The translations under genes and the position numbers were made by a program. A model generated the notes under the pieces. That model did not search any database. It was not told the DNA's origin and worked only from the letters and a program-made list of their open reading frames with translations. Of a stretch of 34,775 bases of DNA, positions 5,611 through 27,519 are shown piece by piece. This DNA comes from Oscillospiraceae bacterium (GTDB lineage Bacteria; Bacillota; Clostridia; Oscillospirales; CAG-272), in NCBI GenBank assembly GCA_015064015.1, contig SVTB01000005.1:1-34775 (forward strand), in the 5' to 3' direction. Numbering within the stretch: position 1 is the stretch's first letter; every line of letters begins with the position of its first letter.

Positions 5611-6645
5611 ATGAGTACCGAAAAAGACATCAAAACCAATGACACCGTAGTAGAGCAGAAAAATGAAACCCGCCTTCCTCCCGAGATGGTACAGGCCCAT
5701 GCCAAAATGATCGCTGCCGCCGATGAGGTGGAGAAAGTTGTTGTAGGTAAACGTAGTGAAGTGTTGCTTTTGCTGACTGCCATGCTGGCAGGTACCCACG
5801 TGCTTATTGAGGATGTTCCCGGCACGGGTAAGACAACTTTGGCTTCTACCCTTGCCAAAGTGACAGGTTTGCAATTCCGCCGTGCTCAGTTTACTCCCGA
5901 TGTCATGGCTTCCGACATCACGGGCTTCCACATTTACAACCGCCAAAAGGAGCAGTTCGAGTTTCGCGAGGGCCTTGTCATGTGTAACCTGCTTTTGGCC
6001 GACGAAATCAACCGTGCTTCTCCCAAGACCCAGTCCGCTCTTTTGGAGGCCATGGAAGAAGGACAGGTCACGGTAGACGGCAATACCATGAGCGTGCCCG
6101 ATCCCTTCATGGTTATTGCGACCCAAAACCCTGCTGGCTATGTAGGCACCTACCCCCTGCCCGAAGCACAGCTGGACCGCTTTTCCTTGAAGCTGAGCAT
6201 GGGATATCCCAATGCCGCCGAGGAAATTAATATCATCAAGGCGCGCCGTGGCGAGAATCCTTTGGACAGCGTAAAGGCTGTACTGACTCAGGACGAGCTG
6301 CGTGAAGTCCGCGATCTGGTGAAAAACGTACATATCGACGATGAGCTGTATGCCTATATCGTCACACTGATTACCGCCACCCGCAAGCATCCCGCCCTTT
6401 CTCTGGGTGCCTCTCCCCGTGCCTCTGTGGCTATGGTACACCTCAGCCAAGCCTACGCCTTCCTTCACGGACGTGATTTCGTACAACCCGATGATATCGC
6501 CGCGCTGTTCAGAGCCGCCATCGCACACCGCCTGATTCTTCGCCAGGAGGCTAAGCTGGCGCATCAAACAGCCATGGACGTGGTGGGTGAAATTCTTCGC
6601 ACCACCGACGTGCCCTACAAGGGTAAGCGCGCTGTTAAGGCTTGA
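5611..6645 (+). CDS. MoxR-family AAA+ ATPase
   Basis: HVLIEDVPGTGKTTLASTLAK Walker A; LLADEINRASPKTQSALLEAMEEGQVTVDG; MVIATQNPAGYVGTYPLPEAQLDRF. Confidence 0.95.
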   Translation: MSTEKDIKTNDTVVEQKNETRLPPEMVQAHAKMIAAADEVEKVVVGKRSEVLLLLTAMLAGTHVLIEDVPGTGKTTLASTLAKVTGLQFRRAQFTPDVMASDITGFHIYNRQKEQFEFREGLVMCNLLLADEINRASPKTQSALLEAMEEGQVTVDGNTMSVPDPFMVIATQNPAGYVGTYPLPEAQLDRFSLKLSMGYPNAAEEINIIKARRGENPLDSVKAVLTQDELREVRDLVKNVHIDDELYAYIVTLITATRKHPALSLGASPRASVAMVHLSQAYAFLHGRDFVQPDDIAALFRAAIAHRLILRQEAKLAHQTAMDVVGEILRTTDVPYKGKRAVKA

Positions 6646-6659
6646 TCGGGGAGTTTCCT

Positions 6660-9101
6660 ATGGAACCAATGAAGCAATGTCCCAACTGCGGCAAATATGT
6701 ACCCGCGGATAAGACGTATTGTATGAGTTGCGGCACAACCCTGGCTCTCAAATGTGAGGCCTGCGGCAAAGTGCTGCCCCTGATGACCAAGGTGTGTCCT
6801 TGCGGACATTCTTTCGTCAGAAAAACAAAAAAGGTGCGACATTCAGTGGTGCTTCCCCTGTTGCGCAAGCATGGCAGAATCCTTCTTTTGGGGATTCTGG
6901 CCGCGTTTGTGTTGGCAACAGTGGTGCTCTCAGCTTTCCCCGTGCTGTCCTATGCCGATGCGCGGACAGAGGAGATCACCGCTTCCGGATATTCGGTTGC
7001 AGGCTACTTCTTCGGTGGCGAGCCCGAAGGCATTCGGATGCTTCTGGGTTTGTCAGCCTTTGAGGATGCCGTGGGCCTTGCGGGAGCTACCTTATATCTG
7101 CAGGGTATCGGATGGCTCATGGTGCTACTGTCCACTCTGCTGATGGCCCTGCTGGTTGCCTGCAATCTAAGAACCTTCGGTCAAGTTACCTCTCGCCGCT
7201 TGATCCCTCTATTGGGTGTATTTGTGGGCGGCGCAGCTGTGATCTTTGGGGCCGATCGTGCGTTGTGGGCGGTGCTCAGTCCTCTTGCCGCCAAGAATCC
7301 TTTGTTCGGGACCTTTGTTCCGCTGACGCTTTTGATTATGGGAGCCGCCGTGCTCGGCTTGCACTTGTTCTTCTATTTTCTGACCGTCAAAGGTGTGGGA
7401 GAGCAAGATGCCCTGTCTATCACGGCCATTCTGTGGTTTCCCTACGATAAGCTCCGTGCCCATCTGCGTAAAAAGCGCGCTGTGGCTCTGGGCAAGGAGG
7501 AAGATGAAAAAAATATTACCTGCACCCGACGTTTCCGTACTTATTTGATTTTGTTGGGCGCCTCCCTGATCTTTACCCAGGCATTGCTTAGCAAAGTTTC
7601 CCACATCTTTTTCTGGTTTATGTTCCTGCTTCCTGTGCCTTGTCTTTTGTATACCTTGATCGCCAAGAGCACCTTAACGGTGACTATGATCTCGGATACC
7701 GCCACCACCGAAAAGGAACAGCCCTATACCTATGAATTCCGTATAGACAACCATTCCATTCTGGCCTTCCCATTCATTGACGCAAAGGTCAGCATCCCTC
7801 AATCCAACAGCGTGCGTTGTACCAACCGAAGCGTTCGGCTGTCTATGGCGCCCATGTCAAGCTATCACATCAAAAATACCCTTCGTTTCCGTTTCCGCGG
7901 TACTTACGAAATCGGTGTGCGTTGCTTTTATGTGTACGATTTCTTCCGTATGTTTCGCGTGAAGGTGCCGGTGGAGAACATGACGACCGTGTACGTCTTG
8001 CCTCGCCGCATCCATTTGGAGGATACTCTGGCACAGGCGGTATCTGACTCTACCGTTCGTACCGTTAAATCCCCCTTGGTGGTGGATCGACTGGAGGTCA
8101 GCGATATCCGCGATTACCAAAACGGAGATCCCCTCAAAAGCATCCATTGGAAGTTGTCCTCCAAGTCGGAAACCTTCGTGGTTAAGGACTACAATACGGG
8201 TACTTCCAATGAAACCGTGGTATTCTGTGATATGGCCGCTCATTTCCCGGATGAACCGCCCATTGTGGTTGAGGCGCCTGTGGTTACCAAAAAGCCTCGA
8301 AAGTCCAAGATGAGCGCCGAGGAGAAAAAAGCCGTTCGAGACGAGGCTAAGGCGCGGAAGGATTCCGAAAAGAAGAAGGCTCTTCAAAAGAGATACCGCC
8401 ATGCGGAGACCTCGGACACCCACGATATTTCTGACGAAGCTTTGGAGGCACGTCTGGCTCAGCGTAATAAGGTGGCCGACCGAAAAATGCAATCATCGTC
8501 TCGTAAAGCCGAAAAGCCTGTTGAGGCGGAAGAGGTTGCGGTGGATTCTGCGAGAGATGTTCACAGTTTGGCTCAACCGATTTACTATGAGGATATGAAC
8601 GAATATCTGGCAGACGGCGTCGTAGAACTGACGGTAGCATCGGTGTTGGCCGAACTTCGTCAGGGACATAACGTAACCCTAATTTGGTTTGACCACCGTT
8701 CTGAAAGCGGCGTTGCAGCCTACGCTTTGCATGGTGTAGAGGAATTTGAAAGTATTTACCATACTTTCGCCACGGCTCCCCTGTGTCCTCCTGACAAGCG
8801 TGTGAGCAGTTTGACCGCCATGATCAGCGATATCCAAAGCGCCAAGCAGCTTTTTGTGACTTCTACGCTGGATAGTGCCATGCTTTCTGAGCTGACCGCT
8901 CTGCCGGGTGTGTCGGACGCAGGCAGCTTTGGCTCTGCCGAGGTCATTTTGTACAATCCCGAGGAGCGTTTCCTCTATCCCATGGAACGCGCCTCTTATT
9001 TGGAGGGATGTCGGGAGACCCTGTTGGTCAACGGCATATCTCTTCGTACCAGTGGCATGATTGCCGTTCGTCGGGAAGGAGGTGAGGTTGGTGAGTCGTA
9101 A
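6660..9101 (+). CDS. Zinc-ribbon + membrane + DUF58-domain protein
   Basis: Start ATG 6660 after GGGGAG; N-term CPNCGKYVPADKTYCMSCG and CEACGKVLPLMTKVCPCG; TM helices; RRIHLED...VSDIRDYQNGDPLKSIHWKLSSKSETFVVKDYN is DUF58 signature. Confidence 0.88.
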   Translation: MEPMKQCPNCGKYVPADKTYCMSCGTTLALKCEACGKVLPLMTKVCPCGHSFVRKTKKVRHSVVLPLLRKHGRILLLGILAAFVLATVVLSAFPVLSYADARTEEITASGYSVAGYFFGGEPEGIRMLLGLSAFEDAVGLAGATLYLQGIGWLMVLLSTLLMALLVACNLRTFGQVTSRRLIPLLGVFVGGAAVIFGADRALWAVLSPLAAKNPLFGTFVPLTLLIMGAAVLGLHLFFYFLTVKGVGEQDALSITAILWFPYDKLRAHLRKKRAVALGKEEDEKNITCTRRFRTYLILLGASLIFTQALLSKVSHIFFWFMFLLPVPCLLYTLIAKSTLTVTMISDTATTEKEQPYTYEFRIDNHSILAFPFIDAKVSIPQSNSVRCTNRSVRLSMAPMSSYHIKNTLRFRFRGTYEIGVRCFYVYDFFRMFRVKVPVENMTTVYVLPRRIHLEDTLAQAVSDSTVRTVKSPLVVDRLEVSDIRDYQNGDPLKSIHWKLSSKSETFVVKDYNTGTSNETVVFCDMAAHFPDEPPIVVEAPVVTKKPRKSKMSAEEKKAVRDEAKARKDSEKKKALQKRYRHAETSDTHDISDEALEARLAQRNKVADRKMQSSSRKAEKPVEAEEVAVDSARDVHSLAQPIYYEDMNEYLADGVVELTVASVLAELRQGHNVTLIWFDHRSESGVAAYALHGVEEFESIYHTFATAPLCPPDKRVSSLTAMISDIQSAKQLFVTSTLDSAMLSELTALPGVSDAGSFGSAEVILYNPEERFLYPMERASYLEGCRETLLVNGISLRTSGMIAVRREGGEVGES

Positions 9102-12100
9102 AACTGCCAATGCGGTTGCTGAGGCCAGAAAACAATATAAAAAAGCCCAAAAGCAAGCCGCCAAAGCTTCTAAGAAACAGGCAAAGCTTCAGAGAAAGGC
9201 CGAAAAGAAGGCGATTGTATCGGTGCACAAGCGTCCCATTGTCTGTCCTCCCGACCAAGCGGGCCGTAGCTTGCCCTTCCGCCTGTTGGGATATCTTTGC
9301 CGCGTTTTAACGGTATGGATGGCTGCCGCCGGCCTTGTGACCTTCGTTTCCGCAGCCTTTGCCTTCAATGTTCCCACATCTACCATTTTCTTGACTACTT
9401 TTGTTGTGGTTGGACTTTGTGCGCTGGCCATGTACAACCGCTGGGGTTTGATCGCCTCATCGGTGAGTGCAGGAGGAATTTTGGTCTATGTGACCGTCAG
9501 TAACCCGTATATTTTCCTCGACCTGGGAGATGCCGTGCTCAATATGTACAACGGCATCATTCGCAGACTTAACGAGGCTTACGATCAGGTGTACAAGAAT
9601 TTCCTTTTGGATGTGTACGAGTCTGATGAGCTGATGAGCCTCGGTGTGTGTCTCATTTGCGTCTTGGTGGGTTTGGTGTTCTCCTTCAGCTTGATCAAAC
9701 GGGTGCGCATCATTCCTCCCGCTATTTTGGCAACCACCTTTTTGGTGATCATCCTGACCTTTAATATCTACAGCAACAAAAATGCCTCTAACTTGGGAAT
9801 AGCTTTGGTCATCGTTTCTTTTGCTACGGTATTGGTCATGGCAGCATATGACAGGCTTTACCGTGTCAAGGATGACAAGCACTATGATACAGGTATGAAT
9901 CTCTTCGGGGATCATGGCCGCCCTTCTTATCCTCCCGAATACGTCGCGGCCCAAGAGCAAAAAGCTCTGGAAAAGGCGGCGCGTAAGGCAACTTCCAAAA
10001 CCACCCAAAATACCTTAGCCCGTATCAAGGGCAGGGAAGAGGTGACGGTGGATGATGAGTTGACGCAATATTTTGGAGGGAGGAAAAAGAAAACACCCAA
10101 GTCTCCAAAAAGTCAAACAACCCTCTCTCCTGCCGAGCGTAAGGAACAAAAGGCCAAGGCAAGAGAGATCCGCCGCCAGGTGCGTTTGGTCAAAAATTAT
10201 GACCGCGTAACAACCCAATCCCGTGCCGCTATGGGTGGCTACGCTTCTGCGGCAGCCATGCTGTTGGCTTTCCTTATCATCGCTCTGCCCGCACTGACCA
10301 TTACCGGCAACTTTGAGACCATCGACATCATCGACGATAAGCTCTCTTTTGCCCGTGATTATGTCACGGCGGTATTGCGCGGTGATGACAAACGCTTAGA
10401 TGAGCTGGACTACGAGGCCGATCGTAACAATTTCGTGCCACGTTCTACCGACTTGGAGCAGTTGAAGTTCCAGCGCACACAGATTTTCTTTGTGGAATCC
10501 CGTTACAATGCGCCCTATTATCTTCGCGGGTGGATCGGTACAGACTATGCTGACGGTGCTTGGCAAGCGGTCAACGACGAGACCCTGGATGCCTACCGTT
10601 CCATATTTGATACAAGCCGCTCTCCGGGCGAGGAGTTCCGCTACAATTTCTACCACTATATGAAGCCTTCGTTGGTGGATGATCCTCAGTATACTGAAAA
10701 TTATTTGGGTGCATATCAATCCAACAAGCCTTACGGTTTTGTTACCGCCCTAGTGAGTCTCCGGCGTGTCAACAGCCCGTCCTCCATGACTTATTTCCCC
10801 AGCGTGTTTAAGGTGTCGGAGGGTGTCTTTGACTATGGCACCACAGACCTCAGCGAGCTGACCTACATCAATTATTTTGACGGCATCTACACGGGCCGTG
10901 CCTTTGAAAAAAACAGCGCGTCTCAGGCCACCGTGGCGATGACGCCCGATATGAAGAGTGAATACTGGTCTACCAACCAGGCCGAGCTTATCGCCGCTTT
11001 TAACATTCAAAAAGAAGCACTGCTCATCAATGAGTATTTGAACAAGGGCGGCAATTTGCAAATGTATCCCGAAAAAGACGAAAAAACAGGCCTGTATTTG
11101 TTCTCTTATCAGTACAATGTTGGCAGAAAAGACGAAAAGATTTGGCGATCCTACCACTTGGATTCTCCTGCCTATGATTTGTATGAAGTGGACGTTGAAA
11201 ACGCTTCGGAATGGATCGTCAAAACTCCCTACGGTACTCTATGTATAAAGCATTCGGGGCGCAAGATTCTGTCAGTCCAATTTATTGATACCACGCAGGA
11301 GGGGCTGTGTCAGCAATATTTCAGCAGCATGACAGATGCCGATCGCCAACTCCTCATGACTTACCTCAAGGAATATAGCGATTATTCGGATTTCGTCTAC
11401 AACACGTATTTGGGAACTTCGGGTAGCGAATATCTCAAGGAATTGGCACAGACCATCAAGGACAGTGCCGAGGGAGATATATCCGTGGCTTCCCAGAGAA
11501 ATTCCAGCTACCGTGAGGTCTACGTTCAAAGAGATCTTCTGGTACGCAGTGTCATTGACTACATTATCTCCGAAAAGGGCTTAGGTTGCGCATATACCAT
11601 CACGCCCGATATCAGCACCGTGGATCCTACTTTGGACGGCGTTGAAAACTTCCTAAAAAATACCAAGGAAGGCTATTGCGTACAGTTCGCGTCCTCCGCA
11701 GCTCTCCTACTGAGAGAGATGGGAATTCCTGTGCGCTACGTGGAAGGCTATATCGCCGCCGATATGAAGCGGCAGGGAGATATCAGCGTGGATATGACCT
11801 ACGGCGGTTACGTCCGTGACGAAGATGCTCACGCTTGGATCGAGGTCTATTATGACGGCGTGGGTTGGATCGCGTACGAAACAACCCCGGAATACTATGA
11901 TCGTTTCTATCCCATCAAGGCAGACAATCCCATTGTCAAACCTCCCGAGACCGAAACACCTGAGCCTGAAACCCAACGTCCTCCCGAGCCCGAAACCCAG
12001 CCTCCGGAGGATGAATCGGGAGAAACCGATACCACCGAGACTGATACGTTGGAGAGTGGTATGGATCTGCCTCCCGACGATGATAGCCAGGCTATTATGC

Positions 12101-12606
12101 AAGGCACCCTGATTGCTTTGGGTGTGCTGGCCGGTATCGCGTTGATCGCGGGTATCATCGGTGCTATAGTATCCTCTGCCCGTCGTGCCGAGGAACAGCG
12201 TCAGATGGTGGTTTCTCAAGTGTTGGATGACCATTTTGGTACCAATGTCAATGAGGAAGATCGCCACGAGATGGCCTGCTCGATGATGGACAGCATCAAT
12301 ACCCTTCTGAGGCTCTTTGAGCTGACGCCCTTGCCGGGTGAGTTCAGAGACGCTTATGCCGATCGCCTCACGGCCATCCTCACTGCCGCCGATGAAAAAG
12401 GAAAGAAGCGGGAAGAGGATCGTGTTGAGCTTCCTGATTTGCGTCGCGTAATGGAGGCTATGTCTGCCGAAGAATTCGGATACGGCATGACCATCCGTGA
12501 GATGAAGCTTTTGGCTATCTTCTATCTTTGCTTGCGTCGCGAGGTCAAGCGCAGATTGCCCGCATCTGCCAGATTCAGACTTCGCTATATCAAGCATTTG
12601 ATCTGA
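9091..12606 (+). CDS. Large transmembrane transglutaminase-like protein (TgpA-like)
   Basis: GTG start 9091 preceded by GGAGG; multi-TM N-term; KEGYCVQFASSAALLLREMGIPVRYVEGYIA...DEDAHAWIEVYYDGVGWIAYETTP transglutaminase Cys/His/Asp motifs; Pro/Glu/Thr-rich linker and late TM. Confidence 0.9.
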   Translation: MSRKTANAVAEARKQYKKAQKQAAKASKKQAKLQRKAEKKAIVSVHKRPIVCPPDQAGRSLPFRLLGYLCRVLTVWMAAAGLVTFVSAAFAFNVPTSTIFLTTFVVVGLCALAMYNRWGLIASSVSAGGILVYVTVSNPYIFLDLGDAVLNMYNGIIRRLNEAYDQVYKNFLLDVYESDELMSLGVCLICVLVGLVFSFSLIKRVRIIPPAILATTFLVIILTFNIYSNKNASNLGIALVIVSFATVLVMAAYDRLYRVKDDKHYDTGMNLFGDHGRPSYPPEYVAAQEQKALEKAARKATSKTTQNTLARIKGREEVTVDDELTQYFGGRKKKTPKSPKSQTTLSPAERKEQKAKAREIRRQVRLVKNYDRVTTQSRAAMGGYASAAAMLLAFLIIALPALTITGNFETIDIIDDKLSFARDYVTAVLRGDDKRLDELDYEADRNNFVPRSTDLEQLKFQRTQIFFVESRYNAPYYLRGWIGTDYADGAWQAVNDETLDAYRSIFDTSRSPGEEFRYNFYHYMKPSLVDDPQYTENYLGAYQSNKPYGFVTALVSLRRVNSPSSMTYFPSVFKVSEGVFDYGTTDLSELTYINYFDGIYTGRAFEKNSASQATVAMTPDMKSEYWSTNQAELIAAFNIQKEALLINEYLNKGGNLQMYPEKDEKTGLYLFSYQYNVGRKDEKIWRSYHLDSPAYDLYEVDVENASEWIVKTPYGTLCIKHSGRKILSVQFIDTTQEGLCQQYFSSMTDADRQLLMTYLKEYSDYSDFVYNTYLGTSGSEYLKELAQTIKDSAEGDISVASQRNSSYREVYVQRDLLVRSVIDYIISEKGLGCAYTITPDISTVDPTLDGVENFLKNTKEGYCVQFASSAALLLREMGIPVRYVEGYIAADMKRQGDISVDMTYGGYVRDEDAHAWIEVYYDGVGWIAYETTPEYYDRFYPIKADNPIVKPPETETPEPETQRPPEPETQPPEDESGETDTTETDTLESGMDLPPDDDSQAIMQGTLIALGVLAGIALIAGIIGAIVSSARRAEEQRQMVVSQVLDDHFGTNVNEEDRHEMACSMMDSINTLLRLFELTPLPGEFRDAYADRLTAILTAADEKGKKREEDRVELPDLRRVMEAMSAEEFGYGMTIREMKLLAIFYLCLRREVKRRLPASARFRLRYIKHLI

Positions 12607-12680: not shown

Positions 12681-13958
12681 TCAATAAATATTACGTATTT
12701 TCTTACGAACTGCGAAGAAAATAAACAATCCCAAGAGTACGGTCACAATGATGCCGCAGATCACGTAGATGCCTGCGCTGACCGTGACGTCGGATTTCAG
12801 CTCTTCCCAAAGTCGATTGATGAGCATGAGCTTTTCTCCGGACAGATTTTTGTAAGTGGAGGTTTGCACGGCATCCGTATCATACATCTTTTCATAGGCG
12901 TCTTCCTTAATTTCGCTCATGTATTCGATGTAGGACTCATCATCCACCACTTTTTGGTTGGGAGATGCGTAATAGGTGTATTCCGCATTGGCAATAGCAG
13001 GGGCGCCGTATGTGGGATCTACCGATAGCATGAAGTTGATATAGCGCTCGGCGATTTCCTTATTTTTGGCTGACTTGGGAACACACATGGCATCCACATA
13101 GAGATTGGTGCCCTCCTTGGGGTAGAAGAACTCCAGATCGGGGTTGTTTTCATACATGGCCAAATAGTCGCCGGCGTAGTAAGCGGCAATACCTGCCGAT
13201 CCGTTTTCCATCTTGTTGTAGATTTCGTCCATGACATAGCCCTGCAGAATGGGCTTTTGCTCTCTAAGCTTATCCAAGGCGGAACGCCATTCGGCCTCGT
13301 CATCGGAATTGACATCTATGCCTAAGAAATATTGGGCTGTGCCAAAAGCATCGCGGGAGTTGTTAAACTGCAGGATATTACCCGCGTGGTTTTCATCCCA
13401 CATGAGCTTCCAGCTACCCAATCCGGGATCATCGGCCTCCACCATGGTGGTGTTATAGATAATGCCGATCATGCCGTAGAGGTAGGGAACGGAATACACG
13501 TTGCCGGGGTCGTAGGCCGAATGCTCAGAGGTCTCTCCGAAAAATTCGGGCAGGAGATTTTCCTTAGCCAATGGAATATTGTCATAGTTCAAGGGCGCCA
13601 ACAGATCTTCGGAAATGAGACGCTCGATCATATAGTCAGAAGGGACGACAACATCATAGCTGACGGAGCCGGAGCTGAGCTTGGCATACAAGGACTCGTT
13701 GCTGGAGAAGGTGGAATAGTTGACCTTGACTCTCACACCGTAGGTATCGTAGTACCAATCCTCAAAAACGGCGTTGGAGTCAAGACAGCCCTCAGAGCCA
13801 TCGGAGATGTACTCCCCCCAGTTGTAGACGTAGAGTGTCACAGTATCGCTACCGATACCCTCGGCCGCACAGCCCGAAAGGCAGAACAACAGGGAAGGAA
13901 GGAGACAAAGAATGGTTAGAAGAAGCGCAGAGATACGCTTGATAATGTTACACTTCAT
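12681..13958 (-). CDS. potD: Spermidine/putrescine ABC transporter substrate-binding protein with extra C-terminal TM helix
   Basis: Lipobox LLFCLSGCAAEG; VTLYVYNWGEYIS...YDVVVPSDYMIERLISEDLLAPL; in pot operon. Confidence 0.92.
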   Translation of the reverse strand: MKCNIIKRISALLLTILCLLPSLLFCLSGCAAEGIGSDTVTLYVYNWGEYISDGSEGCLDSNAVFEDWYYDTYGVRVKVNYSTFSSNESLYAKLSSGSVSYDVVVPSDYMIERLISEDLLAPLNYDNIPLAKENLLPEFFGETSEHSAYDPGNVYSVPYLYGMIGIIYNTTMVEADDPGLGSWKLMWDENHAGNILQFNNSRDAFGTAQYFLGIDVNSDDEAEWRSALDKLREQKPILQGYVMDEIYNKMENGSAGIAAYYAGDYLAMYENNPDLEFFYPKEGTNLYVDAMCVPKSAKNKEIAERYINFMLSVDPTYGAPAIANAEYTYYASPNQKVVDDESYIEYMSEIKEDAYEKMYDTDAVQTSTYKNLSGEKLMLINRLWEELKSDVTVSAGIYVICGIIVTVLLGLFIFFAVRKKIRNIY

Positions 13959-18654: not shown

Positions 18655-21573
18655 TCAATCTTCCTTCTTACGCAGAATGCCCACACCCATAGCCATCATA
18701 GCCAAAGCCGCAACGGCGGACAGGGCGATGACAGAGCCGCAACCGTTGTTATCAATGGCGGGCTCGGGTATGTCAGAATCCACGCTGACAGGATCGGTAG
18801 CCACGGGCGTATCAATAACAGGATCAGTAGCCACGGGTGCATCAGTTGCAGGTTCTGTGGGTGCATCGGTAGTAGGTGCTTCGGTTTCATCGGAGGGATA
18901 AGTGATCTGGGAGACACCGGGGATGTAGTTCTGATAGACATAATTGAGACGACCCAGGGGAGCCGCATCACCGTCGATGTAGAAGTCCTCCATCTCGTCG
19001 TAGGAGGTCTTGCTATCAGCCCACTTGAACTGCATACAGATCTCTTTATAGCCCTCGATACCCACCATTTCCATGGGAACAGTAAGCATCATCTGCTTGC
19101 CCTTGACCTGATAAGAGACTTCGCCAATCACCTCAAAGCCGTAAGCACCGTTCTCTCCGTTGTACTTAGCCACGGTGGTGGTGAAGTGATCCTTTGCCTG
19201 ATAATTGATGATAAAGTCATAGCCGTACCAGCCTGTCTCGACAGAGCTGTCTATATCGACGTAAAGTTGCATCCAAGAGGAAGCGGTGTCGAACATGGTG
19301 ATGTTGTCCTTGGTCTCCACGTAGAAATGGAGATTCTTGGAGTCGGAGACGACCTTGGCGGAAACGATATCGTTGCGGCCGGTATCATTGGTGTACTTGG
19401 TGCGGCCGAAGCCCGTAGCGTCACGGTTAACGGTATCGCCCGTGGGATCGTTGTAGGTAACGGTTACGCCGTCCCATTGATCAAAAGCACCGGTAACGTT
19501 GATGGCCTTGCGCGCATCCTGTACCACGATGGGCGCGGTACCGTTCAGCTTCTGCACGTTGTAGGCGAGCTGGATGTAATAATTATCAAAGTAACCGCCG
19601 CGCATCATTTCGGTGTCGCGAGAGAATTCCATGGAGGAGGTGTCCACAAACCAGATACGATCCGATTTGGTATCCTGACGCTGGGCTACCCATTCGTTCC
19701 AACCGGTGACCAGCACGTACATAGCCTCGGATTCAATGGCGCGATCCCACTGAGCCTGGAAGTTGAGACCCTGAAGGGTCAAAGATTCGTCACTTTCCCA
19801 TGCTTCATAGGCGGCCCTGAGTACACGCTCAAATGCAGCCTTTCGTTTGGATTCCACACCCTCGGGGTTGACGAAGGAGCGGCCGCGGTTGGTGTGATTG
19901 CCGTACAGAGAGGAATCCGAGAAGGCTACAGTACCGCTGTGCTGTGCTACAGATACACTGATGGCGGCACCGTCGAAGTCATAAGAGGATCTATAAAGGC
20001 GGGAGGGCCATTGGAAGTCCATCCAAGGCCAGCCGTTGGTTTTGGATGCCTCGTTAGGCCATTGATTTTGCTTGGTGGTGAAGAAACCGTTGATATTGGC
20101 GCTTTCGGGTGCGATGATAACGGGCTTGCCGTTTATGCAGAACCAAGTATCGGGATAAAGATTTCGAGAGTAAATACGATTGTAGACCTCACGCACTACG
20201 CTGTCAGGGTTCGTGTTGGTGTAGAATACGACCTGAGGTGCGTCAAAGCCCTCCTCATTGAGCTGATGGAGAATTTCCATGAGCTGGATGGCATTGTTGA
20301 GGTAGGAATAACCGTTGGTTACATCGAAATACAGAAAGTCAATGTTGATGTTGCAGAGTAACTCGGCGTGCTTTCTCTGTACCCACGCATCTTTGGCGTA
20401 GTAGTAGCCATACAAAGGTTCGGCAAACCAGTGCATGGCACCCACAGGGCCGTATTTGCCACAGCTGGTGCTTCCTGCTGCTTGCACACCGACCTCATCG
20501 ATGATCTTTTGCAGATCGAAGATACCGCTGTCGCCATGCTCACCCTGCCACAGGAAGTAGAAGAGGCCGACGTAATGCTCGCCGTTGTCTCCGTACAGGC
20601 CTACCTCCTCGGAGGTATAGAAGGAGCGGTTCAGGTCATCGGTGGCCGCAAAACCGCCCGAGGTCAGGTTTTTGTTGTTGGGAAGAGTGTAGGAGCGCGT
20701 CTCGCCGTTGACATCATAGGTAATGGTCACGGTAGAGCCATCTTCTGAATAGGTGTACTTCAAAGAGCCGTCGGAGAGATCGTAATCGGTGGTATCCATA
20801 TCCTTGAAGGTAACTTCGGGCCACTGGCTCTTTTTAGCTTCTTCCTCAAGCCAGAGCTCGTAGGCAATTTTGGCGTTGTATTGGTCGATGTCAAAGCCCT
20901 CGGCCTCCTCTAAGGTGTCGAAGAAAGCAACGCACTTGAAATCAATGGTAGCGCCGTCGGGGATGGGTTCTTTGGCCCAACTGCCGCTCTCTTCCTTGTA
21001 GGCTTCACCTTCCTCGTTCAGCTTGTAGCCTGCTTCCAATACGTCAAAGCGGAAGTATTGGGCAGTCTTACCGTCGAAATGCTCACGATCAATGAGTTCT
21101 TGGGCATCGAAAATATGGGTGTGCCACTGACCGTCGGAGATGACGGCGGTCTCCATCATGGAGGAGTCATCCGAAGGGCCTGCCACGAAGGAGTCCATAA
21201 AGAACTGAGTGGTGGTGTTACCACAGTCGTTGCCGCGGTAGACATACACGACGTAGCGGCCCACGGGGAAGTTGGCCAGCGGATAATAGAAGGGGTCGGT
21301 GGGACCCGGAACCACATGGACGTAATCCTCAACAACGGTTGCGGAAACGATATTGTTAGGACCAACCACGTTGGTCAGCATCTTGGGGGTCAGGATGTTC
21401 TTGGGAATGGTGGTATTAAAGGTGGGGGCTTCTTCGTCTGCGAGAAGATCGAAGGAAAGCTTACTTTCAGCGCTTTGCTCACCGCGAGCCATGGACAGCA
21501 TGGCAAATACCGCAGTGCAGATCATGGCAAAGCAGAGTAGAGCAACGAGGGTGACCAGTAATCTCTTTTTCAT
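18655..21573 (-). CDS. Secreted GH99/GH71-like (WbsX-like) TIM-barrel protein with CBM9-like C-terminal domain and C-terminal hydrophobic anchor
   Basis: Signal peptide MKKRLLVTLVALLCFAMICTAVFA; EHYVGLFYFLWQGEHGD, NIDFLYFDVTNGYSY, YVLVTGWNEWVAQRQ; C-term NNGCGSVIALSAVAALAMMAMGVGILRKKED. Confidence 0.7.
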   Translation of the reverse strand: MKKRLLVTLVALLCFAMICTAVFAMLSMARGEQSAESKLSFDLLADEEAPTFNTTIPKNILTPKMLTNVVGPNNIVSATVVEDYVHVVPGPTDPFYYPLANFPVGRYVVYVYRGNDCGNTTTQFFMDSFVAGPSDDSSMMETAVISDGQWHTHIFDAQELIDREHFDGKTAQYFRFDVLEAGYKLNEEGEAYKEESGSWAKEPIPDGATIDFKCVAFFDTLEEAEGFDIDQYNAKIAYELWLEEEAKKSQWPEVTFKDMDTTDYDLSDGSLKYTYSEDGSTVTITYDVNGETRSYTLPNNKNLTSGGFAATDDLNRSFYTSEEVGLYGDNGEHYVGLFYFLWQGEHGDSGIFDLQKIIDEVGVQAAGSTSCGKYGPVGAMHWFAEPLYGYYYAKDAWVQRKHAELLCNINIDFLYFDVTNGYSYLNNAIQLMEILHQLNEEGFDAPQVVFYTNTNPDSVVREVYNRIYSRNLYPDTWFCINGKPVIIAPESANINGFFTTKQNQWPNEASKTNGWPWMDFQWPSRLYRSSYDFDGAAISVSVAQHSGTVAFSDSSLYGNHTNRGRSFVNPEGVESKRKAAFERVLRAAYEAWESDESLTLQGLNFQAQWDRAIESEAMYVLVTGWNEWVAQRQDTKSDRIWFVDTSSMEFSRDTEMMRGGYFDNYYIQLAYNVQKLNGTAPIVVQDARKAINVTGAFDQWDGVTVTYNDPTGDTVNRDATGFGRTKYTNDTGRNDIVSAKVVSDSKNLHFYVETKDNITMFDTASSWMQLYVDIDSSVETGWYGYDFIINYQAKDHFTTTVAKYNGENGAYGFEVIGEVSYQVKGKQMMLTVPMEMVGIEGYKEICMQFKWADSKTSYDEMEDFYIDGDAAPLGRLNYVYQNYIPGVSQITYPSDETEAPTTDAPTEPATDAPVATDPVIDTPVATDPVSVDSDIPEPAIDNNGCGSVIALSAVAALAMMAMGVGILRKKED

Positions 21574-21647
21574 GATGAGGATTCCTTTCTTTGCTTTGTG
21601 CAAGCCGTTTGGGTGGGTAGCCTTCTGCTGCGCCACTCATTATGGAT

Positions 21648-21676
21648 ATTATAACAGATTTTTTAAAATAAAGCAA
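21648..21676 (-). promoter_or_regulatory. Sigma-A-type promoter of the 18655-21573 gene
   Basis: Minus: TTGCTT, 17-nt spacer, TATAAT. Confidence 0.6.
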
Positions 21677-21694
21677 GGTTTTTTTGATATATTT

Positions 21695-21730
21695 GTAAAA
21701 AAGAACCCTGTATTTTTCATACAGGGTTCT
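21695..21730 (-). terminator. Intrinsic terminator of the 21744-24545 gene
   Basis: Minus: AGAACCCTGTAT-GAAAA-ATACAGGGTTCT then TTTTT. Confidence 0.88.
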
Positions 21731-21743
21731 GAAAGACGGGAAA

Positions 21744-24545
21744 TCAATTTTCTTTCTTTTTAAAAATCCACGCGCTACTCGTCAAAATCAGCATCATAGG
21801 CAAAATAAGCGAGATGGCAGAGGCGCAACCCTGGGGTTCCTTTTGAGGATCGGATGCCGCAGAGGTATCGCTTGTCTCGACTTGGCTGCTTTCTTCGGTG
21901 ATCGGTGTGCTTTCTTCGGTGGTCTCGTCTCCGGGCAGAGCCTCAAATACGCTCTCACCGGGAATGTAGGTTTGGTAGACGTAGTTCATACGGCCCAAAG
22001 GCATACAATCGCCATCGGTGTAGAATTGCTCCATGGTGTTGATGACAGAAGTGCTGTCCACCCATTTGAAGTCGATCGCGATCTGACGGTAGTCCGTTAC
22101 TCCCAAAAGTGTTAGAGGAACGGCAATCATAAGCTCGTTGTCTTTGGCTCGATAGCTGACTTCACCAACAGTTTCAAATCCGTAAGCGCCGTCTGTTCCG
22201 TTGTACTTGGCTACCGTGGTGGTGAATGTATCCTTGGCCTTGTGGTTGATGATAAAATCATAGCCGTACCAACCTGTCTCGTGGTTGCCGTCGGTATTGA
22301 TGTACAGCTGCATCCACGCGCTGTTGGGATCGAACATGGAGATATCGTGGGCTGTCTGTGCGTAAACGTACAGGTTTTGGGTATCGTTTGTGATTTTGGA
22401 GGCTACGATGTCGTTTCTGCCCGTTTGGTTGACATAGTGGGTCTGACCGAAGCCCGTGGCGTCTCTGTGCGCCGCGTCGCCTGTGGGATCCGCATAACTG
22501 ACGGATATATCATTCCATTGGTCAAATTCGCCTGTGACATTGATGGGCTTACGGCCGTCCTGCACCACGATGGGAGCGGTGCCCTTCAGCTTCTGGATGT
22601 TATAAGCGAGCTGAACATAGTAATTGTCGAAATAACCGCCGCGCATCATCTCAATGTCGCGGGAGAATTCGGCAGAAGCGGTGTCCACAAAGAGTACGCG
22701 ATCGGGATCCTTATCCTCGATGTACGTATTGCCATCCTGACGCTGAGCGATCCATTCGTTCCAGCCCGTGACCAGCACAAAGGGTACGTCCTTTTCGATG
22801 GCATAGTCCCATTGCGCTTGGAAATTATAGCCTTGGTTGGTGAGGGAATTGTCTGCCGCCCACGCCTCGTAGGAGGTTTTCAGGAGACGGTTGAAAATGC
22901 CCACGCGCTTGTCGCTGTGACCGTCGGGATTATGGAAAGAACGGCCGCGGTTGGTGTATTCTCCGTACAGAGAGGAGTCGCTGAACATGATCGTACCCGA
23001 ATGCTGAGCGACGGATACGCTGATGGCCGAGGGGTTACCCTTTTCATCGTTAAAGACGCGCTGAGGCCACTGGAAGTCCATCCAAGGCCAAGCGTTCTCA
23101 TGGATGGTCTCATCGTTGGGCCATTGAGAGGCTTTGACGGTGAAAAAGTCTTTGTAATTGATGTTATCGGGAGAAATCACTACGGGCTTGCCGTTCAGCA
23201 TGAACCAAGTATCGGGGTAGAGATTTTGGCTGTAGATGTAGTCGTAGAGCTCCTTAACGCGCTGTTGAGCGTTGGTGTTGGTGTAGAAAACCACTTCGGG
23301 GGCATCATAGCCCTGCTCGTTCAGCTCGTGGAGGATTTCCATGATCTTGATGGCGTTCTTGGCGTAGATGCTGTTGTTGGTTACGTCAAAGTACAAGAAG
23401 TCTACACCCACGTTGGTGAGCAGCTCCATGTGCTTTCGGATGACCCATTCATCGTTGATGTAATAGTAGCCGTACAGGGGTTCGGCAAACCAATGGAAAG
23501 AATGCATGGGGCCGTAAAGACCGCTGTTGGCGTTCATCGCGGCGGAACCACCGGTCTGACGGATTTTTTCCAGATCAAAGATACCGGGATCTCCGTGCTC
23601 ACCGTGCCATAAAAAATAGAACATACCGACGTAATGCTCTCCGTTATCTCCAATCACGCCTACCTGAGAGGCGTTGTACAGGGAGCGGCCCAGATCGTCC
23701 ACCGCGGTCATCGTGCCGCTCTTGTATTGGTTGGTGTTGGGAACGGTGAAGGTGCGGGTCTCGTCGTTGACCTTGTAGGAGATGGTGACAGTTTTCTCAT
23801 CCTCGGAAACGGTGTAGGTCAAAGTACCCTCGGCGGTATCCTCCGGGACAGTTTCCATGTCCTTGTATTCGGGTGCGGGCCATTCCACCTCAGGGGCAAC
23901 TGTCTCGTTTTCCTTGTTTTCCTCTTTTTCTTCGTAGGCCAACTTTTCCTTGTAGGTGTCGAAATCGAAGCGCTTGGCATCCTCAAGGGTTTCGAAGAAG
24001 GCCACATACTTGACGTCAATATGCTCACCCTCGGGTACGTTGAGCTGGAGGGGGTCATAGCGGAAGCCGGTAAAGGTCACGCTGTCATCCACATTGGTCC
24101 AGACAGAGCAATCTGCGATGGACTTGGCCCACTCGCCCGAGCTGTTCTGGTCGAACTTGACGTTGGTGCCGTCCTGACCCATCTGCTTGCCATCGGAGCG
24201 ATTGACGTAAAATTCACCTTGTCTTGTGGAGGTGGTACGCTGGAAGATCACCGCGTAGGCCATTTGATTACACCTGACCTCAGGGACAGGGAGGTGCATG
24301 GAGGGATCGTCTCCCAGTGCGGTGATAGACATATAGCCCTCATCCGAAAATTCGTAGGTGAAATTGTAGGGGTTGTTGATGGAAAGCCCGATTTCGCTGG
24401 TAGAAAAATCGTAAAGCACCAGCGGGTCGGATGTATCAAAGACGGGTGTATCCTCGGCCAAAACGGGAAGAGCTGTTAGCATACTGCCTCCGAGCAGGCA
24501 AAAGCAGAGCCCCATCAAAAGCAAAGTTCGGAACATTTTTTTCAT
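21744..24545 (-). CDS. Paralogous secreted GH99/GH71-like protein
   Basis: MKKMFRTLLLMGLCFCLLGG signal; EHYVGMFYFLWHGEHGDPGIFDLEKI, FVLVTGWNEWIAQRQ, near-colinear with the 18655-21573 product; C-term PQGCASAISLILPMMLILTSSAWIFKKKEN. Confidence 0.72.
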   Translation of the reverse strand: MKKMFRTLLLMGLCFCLLGGSMLTALPVLAEDTPVFDTSDPLVLYDFSTSEIGLSINNPYNFTYEFSDEGYMSITALGDDPSMHLPVPEVRCNQMAYAVIFQRTTSTRQGEFYVNRSDGKQMGQDGTNVKFDQNSSGEWAKSIADCSVWTNVDDSVTFTGFRYDPLQLNVPEGEHIDVKYVAFFETLEDAKRFDFDTYKEKLAYEEKEENKENETVAPEVEWPAPEYKDMETVPEDTAEGTLTYTVSEDEKTVTISYKVNDETRTFTVPNTNQYKSGTMTAVDDLGRSLYNASQVGVIGDNGEHYVGMFYFLWHGEHGDPGIFDLEKIRQTGGSAAMNANSGLYGPMHSFHWFAEPLYGYYYINDEWVIRKHMELLTNVGVDFLYFDVTNNSIYAKNAIKIMEILHELNEQGYDAPEVVFYTNTNAQQRVKELYDYIYSQNLYPDTWFMLNGKPVVISPDNINYKDFFTVKASQWPNDETIHENAWPWMDFQWPQRVFNDEKGNPSAISVSVAQHSGTIMFSDSSLYGEYTNRGRSFHNPDGHSDKRVGIFNRLLKTSYEAWAADNSLTNQGYNFQAQWDYAIEKDVPFVLVTGWNEWIAQRQDGNTYIEDKDPDRVLFVDTASAEFSRDIEMMRGGYFDNYYVQLAYNIQKLKGTAPIVVQDGRKPINVTGEFDQWNDISVSYADPTGDAAHRDATGFGQTHYVNQTGRNDIVASKITNDTQNLYVYAQTAHDISMFDPNSAWMQLYINTDGNHETGWYGYDFIINHKAKDTFTTTVAKYNGTDGAYGFETVGEVSYRAKDNELMIAVPLTLLGVTDYRQIAIDFKWVDSTSVINTMEQFYTDGDCMPLGRMNYVYQTYIPGESVFEALPGDETTEESTPITEESSQVETSDTSAASDPQKEPQGCASAISLILPMMLILTSSAWIFKKKEN

Positions 24546-25273: not shown

Positions 25274-26026
25274 ATGGCGAATATTCATATTTCCCGATAT
25301 AGTCCCTCCCGCACCCGCGGAAAACGCATTCGGAAAGGCGTAGCCCGCACGTTTTTGGGCCTCTTGGTTATGGCTGTGGGTGTTGGATATTTAGGCAATC
25401 ACCTGGACTTCTGCCCTTGGGAAAATTTCACTTTGTTTTTTCCGGGATGGGGGTCGCTGTTTTTGATCATTCCCGCCATTTACTTTTTTATATGCCGTCC
25501 CACCTCGCTGTTTTGGCCCATCATTGGCCTGACGGGGGTACTGGTTCTTCTTGCCAATCAAGACGGCTATGGATTTGGCAAAGCTGCTGCCATCGTTCTG
25601 GCGATTGCTGTGATTTTTGTAGGCCTGCGCATCCTGCTGTCCCCGTTGTTTCGCCGTATCAAGCGTAAGAAAAAGGAGCGCTTTGCATCATTTGCAAACC
25701 AAACCGACACAAATTATTCCGTCCGCTTCGGCGAGCGTACCGTGGCACTGAGCGGGCAGAGCTTCAGAAGTGCCACACTGGACTGCTCCTTCGGCGAGCT
25801 AAATTTAGACCTTCGCGGTGCGCTTATGGAAGATCCTGCTGTGATTGACGCTCGTTGTTCCTTTGGAGAGATCCATATATCCTTGCCTGCGGATGTGAAG
25901 GTAGAGTTACATCCTTCGGCTGTATTGGGAGACGTGTCCAATATGTATGCAGACACTGCGGATTCTTCGGCTCCCACCCTATATATCAACGCTGAATGCT
26001 CCTTTGGGGAGATCGTGGTACGATGA
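25274..26026 (+). CDS. LiaF-like membrane protein (DUF5668-like TM N-terminus, cell-wall-active-antibiotic-response-like C-terminus)
   Basis: TM hairpins then SATLDCSFGELNLDLRG...DARCSFGEIHISLP...INAECSFGEIVVR, typical of LiaF-like beta domains. Confidence 0.72.
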   Translation: MANIHISRYSPSRTRGKRIRKGVARTFLGLLVMAVGVGYLGNHLDFCPWENFTLFFPGWGSLFLIIPAIYFFICRPTSLFWPIIGLTGVLVLLANQDGYGFGKAAAIVLAIAVIFVGLRILLSPLFRRIKRKKKERFASFANQTDTNYSVRFGERTVALSGQSFRSATLDCSFGELNLDLRGALMEDPAVIDARCSFGEIHISLPADVKVELHPSAVLGDVSNMYADTADSSAPTLYINAECSFGEIVVR

Positions 26027-26064
26027 GTGTCGGATCATTGCATGACAAGGAAAGGAAAAAAGAT

Positions 26065-27519
26065 ATGAACGAACGACTGGACATTCTTCAAATGTTGGCG
26101 GAAGGAAAAATTACCCCTGCCCAAGCCGAGCTTCTGTTGGACGCTTCTGACCGCACCCGTTCAGACGAAGAAGGAAGTGATATTTCGAGTTCTCATGACC
26201 TGTTGGCCGCATGCCAAGCGCTGCGGGACGAGTGCGAGGCGATCCGCACACAATGCGAGTCCTTTGCACGTCAGGCGGAGGACTATGCTTCTCAAGCGGA
26301 AGAATATATGAATGAAGCCGAGGACTTTGCCTGTCAGGCCGAGGATTGCGCCGAAAGTGGTTTTTCAAATGACGAAATTCCCAATGTCGAGAAGATCCAA
26401 GCGGCGCTGGAGAAAGCCAATGCTATCATGGAAAGCTTGGGGATTCAAGGGATCAACCTCAAAGAGATTTTCGGTAAGAACTACGGTTCCGCATTCTCTA
26501 AAGCGGGGAATCGTTCAAGTGATGAAACGGAAGGGCTGCGCTTTTACAGTACTGATGAGACGGCTCGGGAGGCGTGGTTTGAGCGACGCAGAAACGATAG
26601 AAAACGTCGCGAGAGTGACAGAAAACGCCGCGAGCAGGATCGAACCCGCCGTGAGGGCGACAGAGCTCGCCGTATCGAAAATTATCTTAGAGATCAAAGA
26701 TTTATTCAAAATGCTAATCTTCCTGCCGAAGGGGATATGGTCCGAGAGGTGGTCGGCACGATATACGAAAACAGTTCCTTCGACGGCCATATCATATCTC
26801 CGGGTATGTACGGAGATCTTCGAGGCATTGTAACCGGAGATATCATTTTAGGCTCCTTGTCGCGGGGCTTCGGAAATCGGGTTGCCAACTGGAACGGCTC
26901 TCTCTTGGGAACAGTAGAGGGGGACGTATCTGCCAATCTGCTTGGTGACATGAAGGGCTCCGTGCGCGGAGACTATACGGGGGTGATTGACGCAGATATG
27001 ATGGGACTGATCGAGGGCGACCTGAATGGCAACGTGTGGGGAGACCTGTACGGTGAGGTGCAGGGTGATATGCGCGGTGATATTGACGGTCATCTTTGCG
27101 GTCACATCGCGGGAGATTACCATGGCTTTGTGGGCGGAAATTTGGCAGGGCTTGTGGAAGGAGACTTCGACGGTATGCTGGATGGACACCTTTTGGGAAT
27201 GGTGCAGGGAGATTTTCGGGGCACCATCTTAGGTGATCTTCACGGATTGATTCAGGGAGATGTGTTTGGTACGGTTGACGGAGACATTGCTGGCACGGTC
27301 AACGGCGATATTCACGGCGATGTCAACGGTGATATTGCCGAAGGTGCTGTGATCGCAGGTGATATCCTCGGCAACGTGGACGGCAATATTTACGGTACGG
27401 TCACAGGAGATATCCGCGGACAAGTCAACGGCAATGTATATGGCGCCGTGGGCGGGGATATCCTTGGCGAAGTAGCAGGAACGGTTTCCTTCGCGAATCA
27501 TGTGACAAATGAATCCTGA
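26065..27519 (+). CDS. SHOCT-like / coiled-coil / tetrapeptide-repeat beta-solenoid protein
   Basis: Start MNERLDILQMLAEGKITPAQAELLLDAS at 26065; coiled coil; Arg-rich 7-mer repeats; C-terminal run of Gly-x-hydrophobic-x tetrads. Confidence 0.85.
   Translation: MNERLDILQMLAEGKITPAQAELLLDASDRTRSDEEGSDISSSHDLLAACQALRDECEAIRTQCESFARQAEDYASQAEEYMNEAEDFACQAEDCAESGFSNDEIPNVEKIQAALEKANAIMESLGIQGINLKEIFGKNYGSAFSKAGNRSSDETEGLRFYSTDETAREAWFERRRNDRKRRESDRKRREQDRTRREGDRARRIENYLRDQRFIQNANLPAEGDMVREVVGTIYENSSFDGHIISPGMYGDLRGIVTGDIILGSLSRGFGNRVANWNGSLLGTVEGDVSANLLGDMKGSVRGDYTGVIDADMMGLIEGDLNGNVWGDLYGEVQGDMRGDIDGHLCGHIAGDYHGFVGGNLAGLVEGDFDGMLDGHLLGMVQGDFRGTILGDLHGLIQGDVFGTVDGDIAGTVNGDIHGDVNGDIAEGAVIAGDILGNVDGNIYGTVTGDIRGQVNGNVYGAVGGDILGEVAGTVSFANHVTNES
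26587..26670 (+). repeat. 21-nt coding repeat, four copies (RRNDRKR RESDRKR REQDRTR REGDRAR)
   Basis: Codon-by-codon reading of 26587-26670. Confidence 0.85.
26896..27489 (+). repeat. 12-nt (4-aa) coding repeat array: 37 tetrads, 18-nt insert, 11 tetrads
   Basis: GSLL GTVE GDVS ... GDIA | EGAVIA | GDIL GNVD ... GTVS; 46 of 48 tetrads start with Gly; all have an aliphatic/aromatic third residue. Confidence 0.92.

Follow-up and report, generated by a model that had tools for sequence, protein, structure and literature searches.

The locus described here raises the question of whether the short cysteine-containing C-terminal tails of two paralogous proteins encoded side by side constitute a protein sorting signal and, if so, which enzymes act on it. 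The two genes lie in the window, the whole stretch of DNA that was analysed (34,775 nt of contig SVTB01000005.1 of the Oscillospiraceae bacterium assembly GCA_015064015.1). Cysteine-containing C-terminal sorting tags and the CPBP proteases that accompany them have been established only recently.

Two Paralogous Proteins and Their Tails

Both proteins, which share 54% identity, have a C-terminus made up of GC[GA]S, a hydrophobic helix and KKE[DN], with the stop codon directly after KKED or KKEN (Table 1). The two tail sequences, which lie on the minus strand with a stop after each, read exactly as in the preliminary description of this DNA, and the low-complexity linker that it placed before the tail has proved to be general over the tails of the host. 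The interval that it assigned to the feature (18655–21830) covers paralogue A completely, whereas it reaches just into the 3′ end of paralogue B (21744–24545). The body of protein A has many paralogues in the host with diverged bodies, and the other matches of a whole-protein search are limited to the tail region. No Pfam family matched protein A, a sequence search of the window cargo against the PDB gave no match, and the AlphaFold model of the window cargo has a pLDDT of 37.

Elsewhere in the window, a PotD-like spermidine/putrescine-binding protein (12681–13958, minus strand) carries an N-terminal lipobox-like LSGCAAEG and, at its C-terminus, a transmembrane helix that ends in basic residues and lacks the cysteine motif. 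On the plus strand, a gene adjoining LiaF-like and DUF2089 genes (25996–27519) encodes a protein of 507 aa, the second half of which forms a long repeat of the GDI-x-G-x-V-x-GD type.

Table 1. Features of the two window proteins and of the tail protein–lgt2–cpbp locus in the same genome
Feature	Location	Strand	Basis
Cargo protein A, 972 aa (predicted signal peptide, unassigned body, T/P/E-rich linker, GCxS tail)	window, 18655..21573	(-)	ORF
Tail A, NNGCGSVIALSAVAALAMMAMGVGILRKKED: Cys motif, hydrophobic helix, basic end	window, 18658..18750	(-)	A5 profile, E 5e-10
Linker of protein A, T/P/E/D-rich	window, 18751..18900	(-)	sequence; composition over 31 tails
Predicted N-terminal signal peptide of protein A, MKKRLLVTLVALLCFAMICTAVFA	window, 21502..21573	(-)	hydrophobicity heuristic
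Cargo protein B, 933 aa, paralogue of A with the same architecture	window, 21744..24545	(-)	ORF
Tail B, PQGCASAISLILPMMLILTSSAWIFKKKEN	window, 21747..21836	(-)	A5 profile, E 3e-9
Linker of protein B, T/S/E-rich	window, 21837..21941	(-)	sequence
Predicted N-terminal signal peptide of protein B, MKKMFRTLLLMGLCFCLLGGSMLTALPVLA	window, 24456..24545	(-)	hydrophobicity heuristic
Tail protein	L062 (contig C44), 3544-2078	(-)	
lgt2	L062 (contig C44), ~1946-1068	(-)	
cpbp	L062 (contig C44), 1066-206	(-)	

The Tail Family in the Host Genome

Two similar tails may be explained by shared ancestry alone, and the host genome (G000; 2.27 Mb in 191 contigs, 75% complete) was therefore searched, the first tail profile being built from ten tails. 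Tail profiles followed by reading of the frames yielded 31 tails on varied proteins, with the cysteine present in 31 of 31; their consensus is [GS]-C-[GAS]-[SA] followed by about 20 hydrophobic residues and then K-K-[KR]-[DE]. A signal peptide is predicted by a hydrophobicity heuristic in all 26 tail proteins with an intact start, the remaining five of the 31 being truncated or interrupted by the end of a contig. The 60 residues upstream of the cysteine consist, over the 31 tails, of 15% T, 15% E, 14% A and 13% P. Among 28 of the tail proteins, Pfam gives a small and mixed set of matches (phosphodiester glycosidase, GDPD, F5/8 type C, laminin-G-like, GH106, GH30 C-terminal and CBM4/9). The sorting signal suggested in the preliminary description was expected to recur on other proteins of the host, and it does. 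The tail is neither a product of chance nor of shared ancestry only: some 30 mostly unrelated secreted proteins of one gut bacterium carry the tag. In other genera, the tail cysteine stands at the same place while the helix sequences vary freely. One paralogue of the window cargo, on host contig C162 (L018:662–3541, minus strand), ends in a plain helix followed by KRKRK and lacks the GC motif.

A profile made from the host tails alone (A2) was too narrow, giving no match in 398 other genomes of the phylum and only scattered matches in relatives, so a broader profile (A5) was made. Since A5 includes tails first found by a pattern scan of the Lgt2 loci described below, its matches at those loci are partly built in; the control genomes were searched with A5 too.

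A Gene Pair Linked to the Tails

The host encodes five CPBP (Rce1-like) proteases, one of them on contig C44, together with another tail protein. At this locus (L062), which is not part of the window, the order on one strand is tail protein, lgt2, which encodes a divergent paralogue of the prolipoprotein diacylglyceryl transferase Lgt, and cpbp, the start of the protease gene overlapping the end of lgt2 (Table 1). A second, ordinary Lgt with the normal GRxGN signature is encoded elsewhere in the host. The window also contains a cluster of genes for a MoxR-type ATPase, a DUF58 protein and a large membrane (transglutaminase-like) protein (5611–12606), and a counterpart of the MoxR/DUF58 cluster lies directly upstream of the tail protein–lgt2–cpbp genes (L062:3670–7028).

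In the four same-family relatives with a strong Lgt2, an orthologous protease with 38–51% identity to that of the host is encoded directly downstream in every case. The genome collection was also scanned with the Lgt2 alignment and the best 80 loci were used, all of them from Clostridia or Firmicutes metagenome assemblies and many from herbivore guts. The protease gene directly follows lgt2 in 65 of these 80 (64 by the distance rule and L129, whose stop-to-stop frame begins further upstream), and 58 of 70 lgt2–cpbp pairs overlap or are separated by no more than 10 nt. The immediate upstream neighbour of lgt2 is a tail gene in 17 loci, which count as 16 distinct ones because L107 and L132 are one record. 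The upstream cargo proteins form about eight groups without detectable similarity between groups, and the linkage therefore does not represent one inherited neighbourhood. The genetic link of the tails with the lgt2–cpbp pair is strong.

Where Lgt2 loci have no adjacent protease (n = 15), nine of the genomes encode the protease at another place (197 bits or more) and one has a weak, broken match elsewhere (10 of 15 matched in all), and a genome search, mostly of incomplete assemblies, did not find it in five of the 15 genomes of this Lgt2 clade. In the protease-less clade a galactokinase-like gene comes after lgt2 in L180, L137, L161 and L184; in L152 and L176, lgt2 stands beside a glycerol-kinase-like gene. 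The long Lgt2 frame of L180 (5938–7965) was considered as an Lgt2–protease fusion and rejected, as Lgt2 runs there in frame into the galactokinase-like protein. Just downstream of lgt2–cpbp in G549 (L109:3408–7481), three consecutive genes bear a cysteine-less tail composed of S-P-[AT]-T-G-F, a helix and SKKR, an LPXTG-like variant beside the pair.

Co-Occurrence across Genomes

The order sample was one fixed set of 295 genomes; the genomes are mostly incomplete metagenome assemblies. A strong Lgt2, a strong CPBP protease and multiple full-length tails occur in it in the identical five genomes (G000, G610, G684, G619 and G549). In these five, Lgt2 is matched at E 5e-57 or better, the CPBP protease reaches at least 264 bits (91 bits in the next best genome), and the tail matches at E ≤ 0.01 number 26, 11, 11, 4 and 4, respectively, most of them covering the cysteine motif. 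The remaining genomes have at most one match each that covers the motif, their other matches being aligned to the helix and lysines only. With the genomes taken as independent, the chance of identical sets of five would be about 1 in 1.8e10 for 295 genomes or 1 in 53130 for the 25 genomes of the family; as the genomes are related, the co-occurrence counts are not independent and the true figure is larger.

Fifty further genomes were picked by Lgt2, mostly for having no tail gene near lgt2. A tail match at E ≤ 0.01 is found in 49 of these 50 Lgt2 genomes versus 30 of the 295 in the order sample, and at E ≤ 1e-4 in 39 of 50 versus 7 of 295. No tail at E ≤ 0.01 was found in the Lgt2 genome G698. 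A single good tail occurs in G530, a genome in which neither Lgt2 (at E ≤ 1e-25) nor the CPBP protease (at E ≤ 1e-8) was matched. A sixth positive, the same-family genome G649 (Lgt E 5e-43), was considered and rejected, having neither a protease neighbour nor tails and branching outside Lgt2. Its sole Lgt match in the Lgt2 search (L110:5165–6010) is of the GCC type (GRVGCFFAGCCYG), so GCC-type Lgts also exist outside the tail system.

The Two Enzymes

Lgt2 belongs to PF01790 (E 9.9e-32; 110.6 bits versus a cut-off of 24.9) and falls below the cut-off of the NCBIfam Lgt model TIGR00544 (82.1 versus 118.9 bits); its PDB profile match is to 5AZB/5AZC only. It retains the Y26, R143, G154, Y235, R239 and E243 positions of the E. 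coli enzyme, whose GRLGNFINGELWG becomes GRLGCLMAGCCHG in Lgt2 (N146C, E151C), and has a Tyr at the position of H103. According to a 2026 study, Y26, H103, R143, N146, G154 and R239 are absolutely required in E. coli Lgt (PMC13251419); Lgt2 has four of these six residues, with H103 replaced by Tyr and N146 by Cys. The same work reports that in natural Lgts H103 is replaced by Y, W or F and N146 by C, that the N146C enzyme is partly functional and E151 dispensable, and that some divergent Lgts of Myxococcales are without R143/R239 (PMC13251419). Since the H103 and N146 replacements occur naturally and the N146C enzyme is partly functional, Lgt2 may be active as a transferase. A quick tree separates Lgt2 from the normal Lgt of the host and from the GCC-type Lgts of its relatives, while the placement of the protease-less Lgt2 members relative to the rest is weakly supported.

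The host protease is a member of PF02517 (E 1.7e-15) with low scores against the NCBIfam models Mrt_core (21.7 bits, cut-off 100), MrtJ (19.2, cut-off 75) and MrtP (15.4, cut-off 250). All of the 43 proteases match MrtJ weakly (best 2.1e-9; 21.5 bits versus the cut-off of 75 for the host-type member), and their nearest curated relatives include MrtJ, Mrt_core and MrtS. The Rce1 active-site positions (EExxxR and His/Asn) are invariant or nearly so over the 43 orthologues. The AlphaFold model of the protease has a pLDDT of 92.9 and its best PDB fold match is Rce1 (4cad), followed by SpdC (6u0o), with a modest E of 7e-3 and a Foldseek probability of 1.00; by sequence, the protease had no match in the PDB. 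No NCBIfam model (release 20) appears to cover the GCxS tail, and none covers the paired CPBP protease.

Proposed Pathway and Alternatives

In our opinion the tail, which we call GCxS-CTERM, is probably a C-terminal sorting signal: its cysteine would receive a lipid from Lgt2 and its helix would be cut off by the CPBP protease, so that the mature protein stays on the surface by a C-terminal lipid anchor. The predicted N-terminal signal peptide would direct export of the protein, and the C-terminal helix would hold it in the membrane, oriented with the basic end towards the cytoplasm and the cysteine on the outer side. Lgt2 would add a diacylglyceryl or similar lipid to the invariant cysteine, and the CPBP/Rce1-like glutamic intramembrane protease, judging by myxosortase and Rce1, would cut just after the lipidated cysteine and free the helix. 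The mature protein would then reside on the outer leaflet via its C-terminal lipid, behind a flexible T/P/E-rich linker. By analogy with these enzymes we infer the lipidation, the cleavage, the order of the steps and the final location; the suggestion of the preliminary description that the tail is processed and possibly lipidated is plausible.

The tail could instead be cut by the CPBP protease while Lgt2 serves otherwise, for example as a second Lgt for ordinary lipoproteins; the lipid on the cysteine, if there is one, would then come from the normal Lgt or from some other enzyme. The MYXO-CTERM tag was processed by MrtX in E. coli without a dedicated partner, which in the view of the authors favours the ordinary Lgt (PMC11980579); moreover, the H103 and N146 positions are altered in Lgt2, and the related GCC-type Lgt of G649 occurs without tails or protease. 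However, the host possesses a separate normal Lgt, and Lgt2 follows the tails and the protease genome by genome and is operon-linked to the protease at most loci. We consider such a different role of Lgt2 rather unlikely.

It appears still less probable that the tail is a mere C-terminal membrane anchor, that is, an uncleaved stop-transfer helix with the lysines inside and a structural or palmitoylated cysteine, to which the gene pair is linked for some other reason. A C-terminal helix can indeed anchor any extracellular protein, and the host cargo paralogue L018 mentioned above has just such an end without the Cys motif, but the invariance of the cysteine in the 31 host tails and in other genera despite freely varying helices, the single phylogenetic profile of the tails and the pair, and the different cargo genes adjoining the pair all argue against it. 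A sortase-type cell-wall signal with an unusual motif would have the same tripartite layout, and three tails score just over the permissive LPXTG_anchor cut-off (16.0–17.7 versus 15.9 bits). These matches, however, involve the helix and lysines only, the tails contain no LPXTG-type motif, and no PF04203 match was found at E ≤ 10 in the host genome (75% complete), making this explanation very improbable.

If Lgt2 and the CPBP protease act on the tail as proposed, the pathway would represent an undescribed means of surface attachment in Gram-positive bacteria, giving the surface proteins of gut Clostridia a second lipid anchor beside that of the N-terminal lipoproteins, and would assign a function to two protein subfamilies so far known by family name only. 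Lgt2 would also be a candidate for the lipid transferase that the myxosortase authors call unidentified (PMC11980579). Since the Lgt-family gene is coupled to the protease gene and tracks the tags across genomes, a specific two-enzyme pathway of C-terminal lipidation is directly testable. One may speculate further that the GCC-type Lgts (N146C, H103Y and two further invariant cysteines) have the lipidation of C-terminal cysteines as their dedicated role, that the clostridial Lgt2–CPBP system is the first complete two-enzyme C-terminal lipoprotein pathway, and that divergent Lgts elsewhere, such as those of Myxococcales without R143/R239, serve MYXO-CTERM and related tags alike; this extension we regard as possible though doubtful.

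Comparison with Known Systems

A cysteine-containing C-terminal tag together with a CPBP protease is a known kind of system. Judged against NCBIfam release 20 and the open literature, the tag family, its occurrence in Gram-positive hosts and its dedicated Lgt partner seem to be new, the survey of Haft (2024) lying outside this comparison, with overlap possible.

The arrangement resembles LPXTG proteins in having a signal peptide at one end and a motif, helix and basic tail at the other in a Gram-positive host, but an invariant cysteine takes the place of the LPXTG motif and no sortase was found in the host. The assignment of the signal to the MYXO/Synerg-CTERM kind rather than to LPXTG, made in the preliminary description, holds. 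Its expectation of a rhombosortase, exosortase or archaeosortase as the partner did not find support in that form: in partner searches that covered the Lgt2/CPBP pair and sortase, the protease that co-occurs with the tag and is linked to it by gene position is CPBP/Rce1-like, of the myxosortase class, and comes with an Lgt paralogue.

Among tested systems the closest parallel is MYXO-CTERM, in which the myxosortase MrtX, a CPBP protease of M. xanthus, is needed for cleavage of the cysteine-containing C-terminal tag (PMC11980579). Both tags have an invariant cysteine (in a generic GCGC in MYXO-CTERM), a transmembrane helix and a basic end at the extreme C-terminus, both occur on many secreted proteins per genome, and both are accompanied by a CPBP/Rce1-like intramembrane protease, in the Clostridia a presumed cognate enzyme. 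Nevertheless, of 35 tails a single one reaches E ≤ 1 with TIGR03382 (14.0 bits versus a cut-off of 15.85), the clostridial protease is far below the Mrt cut-offs, and the clostridial tail end is Lys-rich with a final acidic residue, whereas that of MYXO-CTERM is Arg-rich. As the Clostridia are Gram-positive, there would be no outer membrane or type II secretion step, unlike in MYXO-CTERM. The Clostridia also have a dedicated, gene-linked Lgt paralogue, while for MYXO-CTERM an Lgt-like acyl-transferase has been proposed without being identified, lipidation before cleavage being a hypothesis of the authors (PMC11980579).

Synerg-CTERM/MrtS and JDVT-CTERM/MrtJ are, according to their NCBIfam names, likewise cysteine-containing C-terminal tags with glutamic-type CPBP proteases. 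Seven of the 35 tails match the Synerg-CTERM model TIGR04564 at E ≤ 1 (best 7e-5); tails checked singly, the one with E 7e-5 not among them, gave 11–16 bits versus a cut-off of 22.5. GlyGly_CTERM was rejected as the class of the tail, the single tail above its cut-off (17.3 versus 15.5) matching via the helix and basic residues only.

With Lgt of E. coli (5AZB/5AZC; PMC4728403), Lgt2 shares the PF01790 family and the six conserved positions listed above, but GRLGN...GELWG of the E. coli enzyme reads GRLGC..AGCCHG in Lgt2, with H103Y. Further, the proposed client cysteine of Lgt2 precedes its membrane helix instead of following it, and the gene to which lgt2 is linked encodes a CPBP protease, not LspA. 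On the side of the protease, the fold match and the same active-site positions relate it to Rce1, the CAAX prenyl endopeptidase (MmRce1, 4cad). Rce1 is known to cleave beside a lipidated cysteine close to the C-terminus. The clostridial enzyme would differ in that the lipid is diacylglyceryl and not prenyl, the client is extracytoplasmic, and the piece removed is a whole membrane helix.
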